From the IMG/VR virus record IMGVR_UViG_3300020463_000091, positions 1 to 29,267 of that record: a DNA stretch of 29,267 bases, one strand, 5' to 3'. Numbering within the stretch: the stretch's first letter is position 1; the number at the start of each line of letters is the position of its first letter. The notes under the pieces are model-generated. The model was not told the DNA's origin, did no database searches, and was given only the letters and a program-made list of their open reading frames with translations. Of the stretch, positions 5,668 to 10,986 are shown in pieces. The DNA is from a virus. The translations under genes and the position numbers were made by a program.

Positions 5668-7908
5668 TTATACTAAACTTTCTGTCTTATTTGCAAGTAA
5701 ATTCTTTGTTCTATCCGTATTATTTCTGGTAGCATCACCGATACTTACAAGCATATTTAAGTTTTTGTTAGCCGTTTTAAGTTCGTTTAGAACGTTCGTA
5801 AAGTCTGAGGATGTTACATTACCAGTTTGATTGGTAATAGTATTGGTTGCCATGCCTTTCTGTATTTCTGCATAATTTTTTGCTTCTGCTGGTGATAACA
5901 CACGTTCACCGGCGTGTATCGCCGCTAGTGTATTCCTTGGTTCAACAAATCCTCCTGTAGATTGTAGAGTTCCGATTGCTCTCCCATCTCCTCCACCAAA
6001 AAGATTACTGAAAAAGCCTTTGATTTCCTCGCCATAACCTTCGTAGGCCGCCAGTCCGCCACCTACAGCAGTTCCTAAAGCGGCGCCAAGGGCAGTACCG
6101 ATAATAGGAACCATTGATCCAATGGCCGCTCCTGTTAAAGCACCACTTGCCGCTCCTGTGGCAATTCCTAATCCTTTTTGTACATCATTGTCTGATTCTG
6201 CTCCTGCTTCGGCCATGTTCATTCCAGCATTGACTCCAAATGCACCTGCTCCGATCATTCCTAGTCTGCCTAAAAATCTCATTCCTTTTTGGAAGATCCC
6301 TGCTTTTCCTTTGCCTCCACCGCCCATGAAGCCACCACCCATTCCTCCGGCGGCTTTAATTCCTGCTGTTGTTCCTGTTTTGACAGCGAGGAATAATGGC
6401 ACTGTGTCTTTTAAAATACCAAAGCCTGTTTGTATTCCTTCCTTCATGACAAAGAGTAAACCTGCCATCTCTGGGGTTAATTTTTTGACATCTTCGGAAA
6501 GTTTTCCTAACATATCATTCAGAGATCCTGTGCCTGTGCCTACAAAATCGTCTACCAGTTTTAAAAATCCGGTTTTTGTGCTGTCAACTGCACTTGTTAA
6601 GTTTTTTAGATTAGTTTCAAACTCTGTGAACTCTTGTGTCAGTTTGTCTGCTTCTTTTTGTTGCTCTCCGATTGCGTCTGCTGTGTTCAAACTTGCTGTT
6701 GCCAGTTTGTTTACTTCACCTTGTAGTCTTAAAAACTCAACTGTACCAGTCGCTGTTGTTTCATTGAATCTTTTGTTTGATCTCTGTGCCGCATCTCTCA
6801 TTCTAGTCATGGCTTCTTCGACTGTGATGTTTCCTGCGATTAGATCTTTTACAATTTGTTGTGACTCCGGTATGTTTTGTGCAAACTCGATTGCCGCATC
6901 TGTTACAGGATTACCTGCTGTTGCAATTAAATCTTGTAAACCTGTTGACAAACCAGGGGCAAGTTTTGTAATACCTGCTTCAAACTGTTGTAAGTTCTGT
7001 GCAACTATTGGAGTTTGTGTATTGAGCATTGCAAGGAATCTTTCGTTGGCAAGCGACGCCTCCATTTGTCTTGCAAGATCTTCTCTTTGTTGGCCTGTCA
7101 GCCTTGCCAGTCTATCAAGTTGTTCTATGTAATCTCTAGCAGTCTTTAACTGTTGTGCCTCTGACTGTTGCGTTAGTAAACCTGTTCTTCTTTGTAGTGT
7201 TAGGTTGCTTATCAAGAATTCATTTATTTCTTCAACCGTAAGTCCAAGTGGTGCCAAGAAACTAATGTTGGCATCTCTAAATTGTTTTGATAAACCTGCA
7301 AATTGTTTTGCACCTTCTGTGGTAGTACCAAATAACAATGCCAATGCCTCAGAATTTTTACCAATCATATCGACAAAATCAGTGATTGGTATTCCTGCGT
7401 TCGCTGATGCTTCTCGTAATTGTATTAGGTTCTGTCCAAATGTTGCACCAACAGATGACAATGTTCTAAATGCATCGGTTGATTCACCAAATAAATTTCC
7501 AATCCTTGCAAGTGACTCACCAACTCGACCAAACTCGGCAAGAGACGCTGTGTAATCTTGTATTCTGCCGGTTCCTTCACTGACTGCTTTTGAAAATTTC
7601 CCAACAAAACTTGTTGTTTTGACCGTGCCTTTTGCAAACCCGGTTGCCGCTTTTTCAGATAAACCAATTGATTCGCCTACGTTTTTAAAATTTTGCTCTA
7701 ATTTGGAAGATACACTAAACAGCCTTTTTCTCTGCTCAATTGCTCTCTTGATTTCTTTTTGTTCGTCTTGAGATAATTTGCTGTTCTTTTCTAATGCTCC
7801 GCCGGCCTTGATCAGGCTTTTACGGTAATTCTCCAACTGCTGTGAATTGGTAATTTTTGATAATTCTTCTAATATTTTCTGTACTTCAGGATCCATTTTT
7901 TCTACCAT
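5668..7908 (-). CDS. Tape-measure-like tail protein (gp29 analogue)
   Basis: This 746-residue protein has the usual architecture of a tail tape measure: an N-terminal coiled coil (residues 5-80), a long mostly helical body (80-480), a Gly-rich linker (520-535), a Gly/Ala hydrophobic segment able to span or insert in membrane (578-622), and a C-terminal GGFVEPRNTLAAIHAGERVL motif (652-671), which is typical of tape-measure C-termini. A tape measure sets tail length and is ejected with the DNA. T4 gp29 is 590 residues. The first ATG (7908) has no Shine-Dalgarno; ATG 7895 (MDPEVQ) with GGTAG upstream is an alternative start. It is the first gene after the minus-strand TATAAATA at 7952-7959 and lies beside, but divergent from, the gp26-like tail-assembly genes. 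Confidence 0.75.
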   Translation of the reverse strand: MVEKMDPEVQKILEELSKITNSQQLENYRKSLIKAGGALEKNSKLSQDEQKEIKRAIEQRKRLFSVSSKLEQNFKNVGESIGLSEKAATGFAKGTVKTTSFVGKFSKAVSEGTGRIQDYTASLAEFGRVGESLARIGNLFGESTDAFRTLSSVGATFGQNLIQLREASANAGIPITDFVDMIGKNSEALALLFGTTTEGAKQFAGLSKQFRDANISFLAPLGLTVEEINEFLISNLTLQRRTGLLTQQSEAQQLKTARDYIEQLDRLARLTGQQREDLARQMEASLANERFLAMLNTQTPIVAQNLQQFEAGITKLAPGLSTGLQDLIATAGNPVTDAAIEFAQNIPESQQIVKDLIAGNITVEEAMTRMRDAAQRSNKRFNETTATGTVEFLRLQGEVNKLATASLNTADAIGEQQKEADKLTQEFTEFETNLKNLTSAVDSTKTGFLKLVDDFVGTGTGSLNDMLGKLSEDVKKLTPEMAGLLFVMKEGIQTGFGILKDTVPLFLAVKTGTTAGIKAAGGMGGGFMGGGGKGKAGIFQKGMRFLGRLGMIGAGAFGVNAGMNMAEAGAESDNDVQKGLGIATGAASGALTGAAIGSMVPIIGTALGAALGTAVGGGLAAYEGYGEEIKGFFSNLFGGGDGRAIGTLQSTGGFVEPRNTLAAIHAGERVLSPAEAKNYAEIQKGMATNTITNQTGNVTSSDFTNVLNELKTANKNLNMLVSIGDATRNNTDRTKNLLANKTESLV

Positions 7909-7918
7909 TTTGTACGCA

Positions 7919-7926
7919 TATAAATA
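7919..7926 (+). promoter_or_regulatory. Late promoter TATAAATA for the gp26-like operon
   Basis: This is a perfect match to the T4 late promoter octamer recognised by gp55-RNA polymerase. Transcription would start near 7932, giving a leader of about 43 bases to the gp26-like ATG at 7975. It faces the minus-strand promoter at 7952-7959. Confidence 0.8.
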
Positions 7927-7951
7927 TAGACATACATACGTTAATATGTTA

Positions 7952-7959
7952 TATTTATA
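7952..7959 (-). promoter_or_regulatory. Late promoter TATAAATA for the head operon
   Basis: This is a perfect late-promoter octamer on the minus strand. Transcription would begin near 7946, about 38 bases upstream of the tape-measure-like start at 7908. Its transcript start overlaps that of the plus-strand promoter at 7919, so the 5' ends of the two leaders would be complementary for roughly 12-15 bases. Confidence 0.8.
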
Positions 7960-7974
7960 GACGGAAAAAACACA

Positions 7975-8832
7975 ATGACAAATGAAACAAAACCTTTAAG
8001 CAAATACTATAGACAACCACAGATCTATATCAGATTCCCAAGTGGTGGACAATTTTATCCTCCACAGGTGGTCAAGCCAACTGCAAATGGTGAATACCCA
8101 GTGATGCCCATGACAGCAGTTGACGAACTTGCATTCAAAACACCGGACGCCATGATGAATGGCCAGGCGACAGTGGACGTGATTAAATCCTGCATACCTG
8201 ATATCTTAGATCCATGGCAGATAGTGAACTATGACTTGGACACAATACTTGTCGCAATCAGAATTGCCACGTACGGTGAAAAAATGGATCTAGAAGTCAC
8301 AACTCCGGTAACCAACGAGAAATACACACAATCATTGGATCTAAACACAGTGCTTGAATCACTAGTTGGCAAGCCAATTGAAAATGTCGCCGTGATGAAT
8401 GACGGCATGAAAATAACAAGCAGGCCATTGACTTACAGACAAATCACTACTTCTCAATTGACACAATTTGAACAGCAAAAAATGTATGCTCAGGTCAATA
8501 CAAGTCAACTGTCAGATGTAGAAAAAACAGCAAAGTTCCAGGAAGCATTTAAAAAACTTACGCAGTTGAATTCTAGTCTTTTATTAGGAAACATAAACAG
8601 CATTGAATTGCCTACAGGTGAAACTGTTACTGATCCTGCACAGATAAAAGAGTTTGTTGACAACGCTCCGACCAAACTTATTAAGGAACTAGAAGACAAA
8701 ATGAGTGTTTTGAGACAACAAGGTTCAGTGAAACCTATACAGATCAAAGCAACAGAAGAACAGATCAAAGCAGGAGTGCCAAGCACTTTCACAGTGCCTA
8801 TAGCATTTGATAACTCAAATTTTTTCGTATAA
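7975..8832 (+). CDS. gp26: gp26-like baseplate hub / tail-assembly protein
   Basis: This 285-residue protein starts with KYYRQPQIYIRFPSGGQFYP, then MPMTAVDELAFKTPDAMMNG and SCIPDILDPWQIVNYDLDTI. These are typical of the T4 baseplate protein family that includes gp26 and gp51 (the Pfam T4_baseplate group). T4 gp26 is 208 residues and is needed for hub assembly. Residues 1-175 carry the family core; 175-270 is more helical and variable. It is transcribed from the late promoter at 7919. The last sense codons are AAT TTT TTC GTA before TAA; they contain a TTTTTTC slippery heptamer placed to shift ribosomes into the next reading frame. That, with the tape-measure neighbour, suggests a tail-assembly chaperone role (inference). 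Confidence 0.75.
   Translation: MTNETKPLSKYYRQPQIYIRFPSGGQFYPPQVVKPTANGEYPVMPMTAVDELAFKTPDAMMNGQATVDVIKSCIPDILDPWQIVNYDLDTILVAIRIATYGEKMDLEVTTPVTNEKYTQSLDLNTVLESLVGKPIENVAVMNDGMKITSRPLTYRQITTSQLTQFEQQKMYAQVNTSQLSDVEKTAKFQEAFKKLTQLNSSLLLGNINSIELPTGETVTDPAQIKEFVDNAPTKLIKELEDKMSVLRQQGSVKPIQIKATEEQIKAGVPSTFTVPIAFDNSNFFV
8820..8826 (+). promoter_or_regulatory. Candidate programmed -1 ribosomal frameshift site TTTTTTC
   Basis: The heptamer T TTT TTC lies in the correct frame (X XXY YYZ) two codons before the stop of the gp26-like gene. After a -1 slip the next codons read CGT ATA AAA TTA GTG ACA ATG and continue without a stop through the downstream small gene to 9056. The -1 frame is closed by a TAA at 8811-8813, just upstream, so the window between that stop and the zero-frame stop at 8830-8832 is tiny and the slippery site sits inside it. 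The fused product would be 360 residues. A weak hairpin (8848-8854 with 8861-8867) lies farther downstream than usual for a stimulator. Confidence 0.6.
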
Positions 8833-8843
8833 AATTAGTGACA

Positions 8844-9056
8844 ATGGGGGAATCTGACATGATTTCCTTTTTTAAGGACCTAGAAAATGAATGTAAGAAT
8901 CTCAAGAATGAATTGTTTAAAATTTGTTGGTATATGCGTGGAGGCGTAACATACCAAGAATCCCTAGCACTATCCTTTGATGACAGACAGATCATCGGTG
9001 CACTCATAAAAGAAAACTTAGAAACAACCAAAAAAACAGGACAGCCATTTTTTTAA
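8844..9056 (+). CDS. Small CWYMRG protein, probably also made as frameshift fusion
   Basis: This protein of about 70 residues has the conserved-looking core LFKICWYMRGGVTYQESLAL, then SFDDRQIIGALIKENLETTK and a KKTGQPFF end; I recall similar proteins next to gp26 in marine T4-like phages. Possible independent starts are GTG 8838, ATG 8844 and ATG 8859; the last has GGGGGA 7 bases upstream. It is in the -1 frame relative to the gp26-like gene and open back to the TTTTTTC site at 8820, so it may instead (or also) be the C-terminal part of a 360-residue fusion. By analogy with lambda G/GT this would be the tape-measure-binding T domain (inference). No catalytic motif is seen. Confidence 0.75.
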   Translation: MGESDMISFFKDLENECKNLKNELFKICWYMRGGVTYQESLALSFDDRQIIGALIKENLETTKKTGQPFF

Positions 9057-9109: not shown

Positions 9110-10069
9110 ATGTTCAAGGGAGCATACACACCGCAGGACTCTGCACTATTTGGATCTTTTGAATGTCCAGAAGAGGTCGACATACCGTTGACCGACATAG
9201 AGGCCTATAAACTATGGCCAAATCTCAATTGGATCTACGACAAACCAAAACTGTGTGAAAGCCTCAAAGTCAAACACAACTTCTCTGGCATAATGCCTGA
9301 AGAGTTTCCTGTGTTTCAGAAACCCATTCAAAATTTACACGGACGTGGACAGAACACAAAACTTATTTCAAACCCAAAAGAATTTGAGAAGAGTTATATG
9401 CCGGGAACCTTTTGGATGCCTGCATACACAGGAAATCATTGGAGCGTGGACGTGATCATGCTTAACGGTAAGGTTGCCGATTATTTCTGTGTGCTGGGAC
9501 ATCCATCTTTTGACGGAATGTTTGACTATTGGGAATACAAGGGAAGAGTGGACGAGAACATCGGCAAGTACGATGAACATATGTTACAGGCATCTATCAA
9601 AGCAACTGACTTCTGTGAGAAACATCTTCAAGATTATGGTTGGAGCGGAGTGATTAACTTTGAACTGATAGGTGAGAACATAATCGAGGCACACTTGAGA
9701 ATGAGTCCACAATTTGCAGTGATGTACGGCGAGGCAGTCTTGAAACAGTTGCCTGACGTTTACGCAGGAAACAAGTACAAGAAAGATCCCATGAAGCAGA
9801 CACCACCCGGGGGATATGTTTTACCTATGTTTGTAGAAGAGGCTCCTAAACACGGTTTCGAGGTCAACGATAAGAAAATAAAAGAAGTTCTCGACGACGA
9901 GAACGTGCGCCACGTCAGTTTTGAGTATACTGGAGAGAACAATCTGGAAGATATCGCACACCCACCCGGCGGATTTTATCTGGGAAGTATCACAGTCACA
10001 AATCTAGACAAAGGCAAAGAACAGCGTAAAGAACTTTTCAAAGCATTTGTATCAAGAGATATTCACTAA
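9110..10069 (+). CDS. ATP-grasp-like protein of unknown substrate
   Basis: This 319-residue protein shows the order of an ATP-grasp ligase. FPVFQKP (residues 66-72, Lys 71 as candidate ATP-binding lysine) is followed by the glycine loop LHGRGQN (76-82), SNPKEFEKSY, then the YTGNHWSVDVIMLNGKVADY strand pair (106-125; compare ExxxGxEysVDvl..G), a helix, and WSGVINFELIGENIIEAHLR (178-197), which corresponds to the metal-binding vdFel....iEvNpR segment. The usual Asn of E-x-N is His 195 here. The pre-ATP-grasp N-terminal domain is short. The C-terminus has GGFYLGSITVTN. If active it would join a carboxylate to an amine or thiol using ATP; the substrate is unknown. AAAGG lies 16 bases before the ATG, so ribosome binding is weak. 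The assignment is by pattern only. Confidence 0.5.
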   Translation: MFKGAYTPQDSALFGSFECPEEVDIPLTDIEAYKLWPNLNWIYDKPKLCESLKVKHNFSGIMPEEFPVFQKPIQNLHGRGQNTKLISNPKEFEKSYMPGTFWMPAYTGNHWSVDVIMLNGKVADYFCVLGHPSFDGMFDYWEYKGRVDENIGKYDEHMLQASIKATDFCEKHLQDYGWSGVINFELIGENIIEAHLRMSPQFAVMYGEAVLKQLPDVYAGNKYKKDPMKQTPPGGYVLPMFVEEAPKHGFEVNDKKIKEVLDDENVRHVSFEYTGENNLEDIAHPPGGFYLGSITVTNLDKGKEQRKELFKAFVSRDIH

Positions 10070-10396: not shown

Positions 10397-10545
10397 CTTG
10401 TGATTCACCACCTACTGTCAGTTCGGCGCACTTCACGTTTTACCTGGATGCTATTTTTGCCTGTGATTTTAATTTGAGAAAGTTTGTGCCTATCACTAGT
10501 ATATAACACACACAAATTTTGAGGTCAATCTTTTTGAGTTTAAAT

Positions 10546-10986
10546 ATGGATATGAGTTGGATTTATCAAGAAAAACCCATTAATGAATTACCAAATGATT
10601 GTGTTGGCTTTGTGTATCAGATTACAAATACAACCAACGGTAAGATGTACATCGGCAAAAAATTAGCAAAATTTAGTCGATCGAGGAAACCTCTCAAGGG
10701 CAGAGTCAACAAAAGAAGATATAAAATTGAATCAGATTGGCAGGATTATTATGGATCGAGTGATGCATTAAATGAAGATATACAAAAAATTGGTAAAAGT
10801 AAATTTAAAAGAGAAATATTATTTTATTGTAAATCAAAAGCAGAATTATCTTACATAGAGGCTAGAGAACAGTTTGCACGGAAAGTGCTTGAAACAGACG
10901 ATTACTATAACGGCCATATCCGTGTGAGAATACATGGTTCGGGGATCATGAGAGAAAAATCAACCAAAGGAATACTCCAATCATAA
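10546..10986 (+). CDS. GIY-YIG-like endonuclease
   Basis: The protein (146 residues from ATG 10546; ATG 10552 is an alternative) has GFVYQITNTTNGKMYIGKKL at residues 21-40, a GIY-YIG N-terminal signature with FVY in place of GIY, followed by a basic stretch SRSRKPLKGRVNKRRYK, ESDWQDYYGSS, KREILFYCKSKAELSYIEAR and EQFARKVLETDDYYNGHIRV. The Glu in YIEARE would be the metal-binding residue of the family. T4-type phages carry free-standing GIY-YIG nucleases (Seg/homing type) and repair-type ones; no DNA-binding tail is visible, so homing activity is uncertain. GAG lies 8 bases before the ATG. It follows the structured island and ends just before a bidirectional terminator. There is no late promoter nearby, so it is probably not a late gene. 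Confidence 0.7.
   Translation: MDMSWIYQEKPINELPNDCVGFVYQITNTTNGKMYIGKKLAKFSRSRKPLKGRVNKRRYKIESDWQDYYGSSDALNEDIQKIGKSKFKREILFYCKSKAELSYIEAREQFARKVLETDDYYNGHIRVRIHGSGIMREKSTKGILQS

Follow-up and report, generated by a model that had tools for sequence, protein, structure and literature searches.

The window analysed here is a stretch of viral DNA of 29,267 nucleotides (IMG/VR record IMGVR_UViG_3300020463_000091), in which the reading frame of a gp26-like protein overlaps by 22 nt with a small open reading frame in the -1 frame, the 'CWYMRG protein'. The heptamer TTTTTTC lies inside this overlap, where the zero-frame codons AAT TTT TTC GTA TAA place it in the exact X XXY YYZ register (Table 1). 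The -1 frame is closed by a TAA just upstream, is then open through position 9053 and closes at the TAA at 9054-9056. Because of the upstream stop, with no start codon in between, the -1 codons at the site are unreadable in the window unless the frame is shifted. A -1 shift is predicted to yield a single product of 284 + 76 = 360 residues with the junction ...Asn-Phe-Phe-Arg-Ile-Lys.... A previous sequence-only reading of the window had described the same anatomy: the position and register of the heptamer as well as the blocked and then open -1 frame were reproduced, the fusion and its junction were recomputed with the same result, and the GGGGGA that it reported ahead of the ATG at 8859 is present.

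Table 1. Positions of the genes and sequence elements at the chaperone locus of the window.
Feature	Position	Strand	Evidence or remark
Tape-measure-like protein, 746 aa, divergent neighbour	5668..7908	-	phrog_167 tail length tape measure protein, E 2.6e-8
T4 late-promoter-like TATAAATA, for chaperone gene	7919..7926	+	ahead of gp26 in 45/60 relatives
T4 late-promoter-like TATAAATA, for tape-measure gene	7952..7959	-	40/60 relatives
Predicted TAC-N, gp26-like tail assembly chaperone, zero-frame product, 285 aa	7975..8832	+	PF12322, phrog_150, AlphaFold2
TAA closing the -1 frame upstream (5' limit of shift window)	8811..8813	+
Second in-register heptamer A AAT TTT, overlapping TTTTTTC	8817..8823	+	a shift there would give the identical protein
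Slippery heptamer T TTT TTC	8820..8826	+	in-register; kept in 179 loci
Predicted TAC-C, -1 extension ('CWYMRG protein'), 76 codons plus stop	8826..9056	+	pN/pS, AlphaFold2, cyanophage counterpart vs T4 gp51
Zero-frame stop TAA	8830..8832	+	one codon past heptamer

The gp26-like frame matches the families PF12322 (T4_baseplate; E 5e-11, 43.1 bits against a curated cut-off of 24.5) and phrog_150 (baseplate hub; E 6.5e-13). The AlphaFold2 model of the short form (pLDDT 87) matches predicted baseplate hub assembly proteins of T4-like phages (E 2.8e-24) and, in one weak case, a protein named tail assembly chaperone (E 6.7e-3). A fold search of the PDB with the short form gave no significant match, and a PDB sequence search returned nothing other than designed or unrelated helical proteins. 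The -1 domain is modelled as helical (pLDDT 90); it matched no protein family of its own, and a fold search with it found nothing below E 0.001. By tblastn, the -1 reading frame leads to jumbo phages (Atu_ph07, Phosso and the PA5oct group), and these matches begin at the heptamer and follow the -1 frame. The cyanophage counterpart of this domain aligns with the C-terminus of T4 gp51 (probability 95%, E 2.7e-8), and the domain of the window falls on the same region of gp51 in a weak alignment (E 0.016; against the cyanophage domain, E 0.11).

The tape-measure-like nature of the adjacent 746-residue protein, proposed in the sequence-only reading, is borne out by its phrog_167 match and by an adjacency that is kept in relatives: 56 of the 74 relatives with enough flanking sequence carry a tape-measure homologue upstream, encoded on the opposite strand. 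The motif TATAAATA occurs on both strands between the tape-measure and chaperone genes in 34 of 60 relatives, as it does in the gap of the window (7909-7974), which is likely a shared late control point for both genes. Directly after the chaperone gene follows a reading frame of 319 residues and unknown function (9110-10069). It is present in 4 of 73 relatives with enough flank and is apparently an accessory gene. Further downstream, at 10519-10986, the window encodes a SegE-type GIY-YIG homing endonuclease (PF19835, E 4e-38).

Taken without comparative data, the motif is weak evidence for a frameshift, because the window contains 25 copies of TTTTTTC where 22.7 are expected by chance. Its genes include 71 in-register heptamers of the form X XXY YYZ, two of which are TTTTTTC. 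Once relatives are compared, the heptamer stands far above chance. IMG/VR holds at least 586 relatives, of which the best 80 were compared; together with three jumbo phages and a copy of the window they form a first-round set of 84 loci, found with search patterns that are all located 3' of the heptamer. In all 84 loci, the -1 relation is kept and the stops of the two frames flank an in-register TTTTTTC. The same arrangement is found in the cyanophages S-H9-1 and S-CAM1, in 121Q, GAP32, XaC1, RaK2 and Vibrio phage 2.275, and also in KVP40, P-SSM2 and further cyanophages, so that the total comes to 179 loci. In each of them the T-run is exactly six, and in 164 the distance from heptamer to stop is one codon. 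These 179 loci include near-duplicates; the number of dereplicated relatives (60) and the number of -1 domain clusters at <60% identity (27) are fairer counts. In 54 of the 60 relatives, the heptamer is part of A AAT TTT TTC, which comprises two overlapping in-register heptamers. Distant relatives were collected by scans with single distant members, many loci coming from the cyanophage scan only; an alignment-guided scan for distant relatives offered no stretch conserved enough.

The homologous loci found without TTTTTTC are few. At the same place, phiN3 and Atu_ph04 possess seven T and Melnitz eight, and the subgroup of T4, phiAS4 and L9-6 has no heptamer and carries the C part in frame within a full-length gene 51. 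In addition, one uncultured phage (L093) gave a partial match with no detectable -1 domain. Relatives with the two genes in other frames, with separated genes or with no slippery motif had been named in advance as the case that would speak against a frameshift; apart from these exceptions, the comparison of the junction came out in its favour, with heptamer, register, -1 relation and adjacency all kept. One might suspect that the two frames overlap by chance, or that a single gene was split by an indel arising in sequencing or assembly, given that TTTTTTC is common in this AT-rich window and that homopolymers attract indel errors. However, the 179 loci include the finished isolate genomes of KVP40, P-SSM2, 121Q and GAP32, and the site is synonymously invariant; chance or assembly error is refuted by these comparative data, and we assign it practically no probability.

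The invariance of the site is seen at the level of codons. Among 15 conserved degenerate zero-frame columns in the 60 dereplicated relatives, synonymous change is absent solely in NNT TTT TTC; the other conserved Phe column is TTT in 38 relatives and TTC in 22. From codon usage, the chance of obtaining the site codons is about 0.13 per independent lineage, the lineages being related to each other. Past the heptamer, codons 3-37 of the -1 frame (up to the conserved core) contain no stop in 58 relatives, compared with 220 stops in the zero frame, and their pN/pS is 0.23. Judged by this comparison, the -1 frame right after the heptamer is protein-coding and under purifying selection. Dual coding alone could hold some bases of the slip site, but in the window, as noted above, the -1 codons there depend on a shift to be read. 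For the cyanophages, the last C of the heptamer is invariant and the -1 codon opened by this C varies (CGN, CAG, CTC, CTA, CAA, CAC). Because this codon varies and both TTT and TTC encode Phe, the final C is required by the amino acid of neither frame. The comparative sequences strongly support the interpretation that the 'CWYMRG protein' serves as C-terminal domain in a predicted 360-residue fusion, the two products (TAC-N and TAC-NC) being chaperones of the gp26/gp51 type.

What has to be weighed against a fusion is independent translation of the small reading frame, which the sequence-only reading had also considered. Its sequence basis stands: the GGGGGA (8846-8851), a plausible ribosome-binding site, lies 7 nt ahead of ATG 8859 in the window. 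The start, however, is not conserved, since 30 of 58 relatives have no ATG ahead of the conserved core (before codon 37), 13 of the 58 lack any ATG, GTG or TTG there, and a start with an SD-like 4-mer is found in only eight; the 75-codon -1 reading frame of PA5oct contains none of the three start codons at all. Two ordinary overlapping genes, with the small protein initiated independently at ATG 8859 or GTG 8838 or else translated through coupling to the stop of gp26, would find a further argument in the cyanophages, where codon 5 of the -1 frame is ATG in 79 of 86 loci and public records list a separate gp51. Such an arrangement leaves both the invariant heptamer and the conserved -1 codons upstream of any start unexplained, and we regard it as very improbable; for the relatives, separate genes are largely ruled out by the comparative start-codon data. 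Some separate translation from ATG 8859 in the window and low-level separate translation in cyanophages are possible.

We therefore consider it highly probable that the locus represents one recoded tail assembly chaperone gene of a T4-like phage, from which a ribosomal -1 slip leads to the predicted TAC-N and TAC-NC. According to this model, the majority of ribosomes would read the gp26-like frame to the stop at 8830 and release the 285-residue short form, TAC-N. A minority, with tRNA-Phe positioned on the TTT and TTC codons, would move back by a single base on T TTT TTC and read the -1 frame as far as 9056, so that TAC-NC, the long form of 360 residues, would result. If the two forms act as lambda G and G-T do, TAC-N would coat the tape-measure protein of the adjacent gene on the other strand, and the C-terminal domain added in the few TAC-NC copies would bring in the tail tube subunit. 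We infer the ribosomal nature of the slip, its efficiency and the chaperone role. A G/T-type role is suggested here by family membership, synteny and the published work on chaperones of T4-like phages, which support the earlier proposal that the gp26-like and CWYMRG proteins are the G and T parts.

The identical fusion protein could be made by normal ribosomes if RNA polymerase inserted one extra U while copying the T6 run. Such transcriptional slippage would fit the conservation of a homopolymer, and also the T7 and T8 runs of phiN3, Atu_ph04 and Melnitz. However, the run never exceeds six within the main families, and six T is short for transcriptional slippage in bacteria. Furthermore, the C after the run is invariant, the codon register is exact, and the SD-like element of the cyanophages lies at a spacing that stimulates ribosomal -1 shifts, a rule derived from dnaX. 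Slippage by the ribosome is much preferred over slippage by the polymerase, to which we attach a slight probability.

A further question is how a ribosomal shift would be stimulated. Cyanophage loci possess a near-invariant SD-like GGAGGG at -15 to -10 from TTTTTTC (L095, L105-L111 and others). An SD-like 4-mer upstream of the heptamer is found in 84 of 86 cyanophage loci, compared with one of 60 in the family of the window. For the latter family, the RNAalifold consensus downstream of the site is empty, i.e. no conserved RNA structure is predicted, and z-scores of RNA structure in sliding windows beside the site reach only about -0.5. The sequence of the window alone can fold into a hairpin about 19 nt downstream, which is not conserved. 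In this family the usual frameshift stimulators, an upstream SD element and a conserved downstream RNA structure, are thus missing, which counts against frameshifting. One explanation, which we put forward tentatively and with some doubt, could be that the window's family shifts by means of A AAT TTT TTC itself, perhaps together with the stop one codon downstream or with the nascent peptide, and the cyanophages by means of the SD-like GGAGGG, so that the slippery site would have persisted while the stimulator was exchanged.

Relatives also differ in the length of the first gene. In L062-L066, the gp26 zero frame comprises about 544 codons compared with the usual 285 or so, which suggests an N-terminal extension or a fused gene.

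The model has consequences for annotation. A recurrent 'hypothetical protein' of many marine and jumbo T4-like phages would be the C-terminal part of a recoded chaperone, whose gene is overlooked or split by gene callers. The -1 reading frame is unannotated in the public records of S-H9-1, S-CAM1, S-CAM8, RaK2 and PA5oct; where the counterpart is named in public records, it is called gp51, baseplate hub assembly catalyst. One slippery heptamer is kept at one position across very divergent T4-like phages, and the loci with SD element, those lacking it and the absence of a slip in T4 form a natural series for testing the evolution of tail-chaperone recoding.

In lambda, ribosomes slip by -1 shortly before the first reading frame ends, which yields a short and a long chaperone that act on the tape-measure protein; G/GT frameshifting of this type occurs widely, with T4 listed as an exception in a 2016 review (PMC5009743). 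The window's locus would follow the same short/long -1 logic as lambda G and G-T, and it differs in protein family and heptamer. The lambda pair precedes the tape-measure gene and shares its strand, whereas the tape-measure gene of the window is divergent. T4 itself has both chaperone parts, N and C, joined within a single polypeptide, gp51, as in the long form proposed here, but gene 51 is a separate in-frame gene without a slippery site, and T4 gene 26 lies on the opposite strand. This agrees with the remark of the sequence-only reading that T4 is not a textbook case of frameshifting. The study by Vladimirov and colleagues reportedly found frameshifting conserved in several T4-like groups, whereas in T4 genes 26 and 51 are separate.

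The chaperones of T4-like phages were identified by Vladimirov, Gautam and Davidson (2022, Virology 566:9-15; cited in PMC10885494 and PMC12846349), and poly-T -1 slippery sites are known in their TAC-N genes (PMC12846349). These chaperones share with our locus a TAC-N of the gp26 family, a small -1 TAC-C, a poly-T slippery site and the tape-measure partner; the window differs in its divergent tape-measure gene and in the absence of the SD-like element of the cyanophages. The tail assembly chaperones of Vandenendeviridae and Andersonviridae, with a GTTTTT frameshift, likewise have a T-rich invariant site and a -1 TAC-C that is routinely misannotated as separate or intergenic (PMC12846349), although the motif and the phage families are not those of the window. 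The assignment of the locus to the recoded chaperones of the G/GT type, a kind already known from lambda G/GT and from Vladimirov et al. (2022), is well supported by comparative sequence data. What appears to be new is the extent of the conservation, the annotation of the marine family and the difference in context, i.e. an SD-like GGAGGG in cyanophages as opposed to neither an SD element nor a conserved RNA structure in the family of the window.
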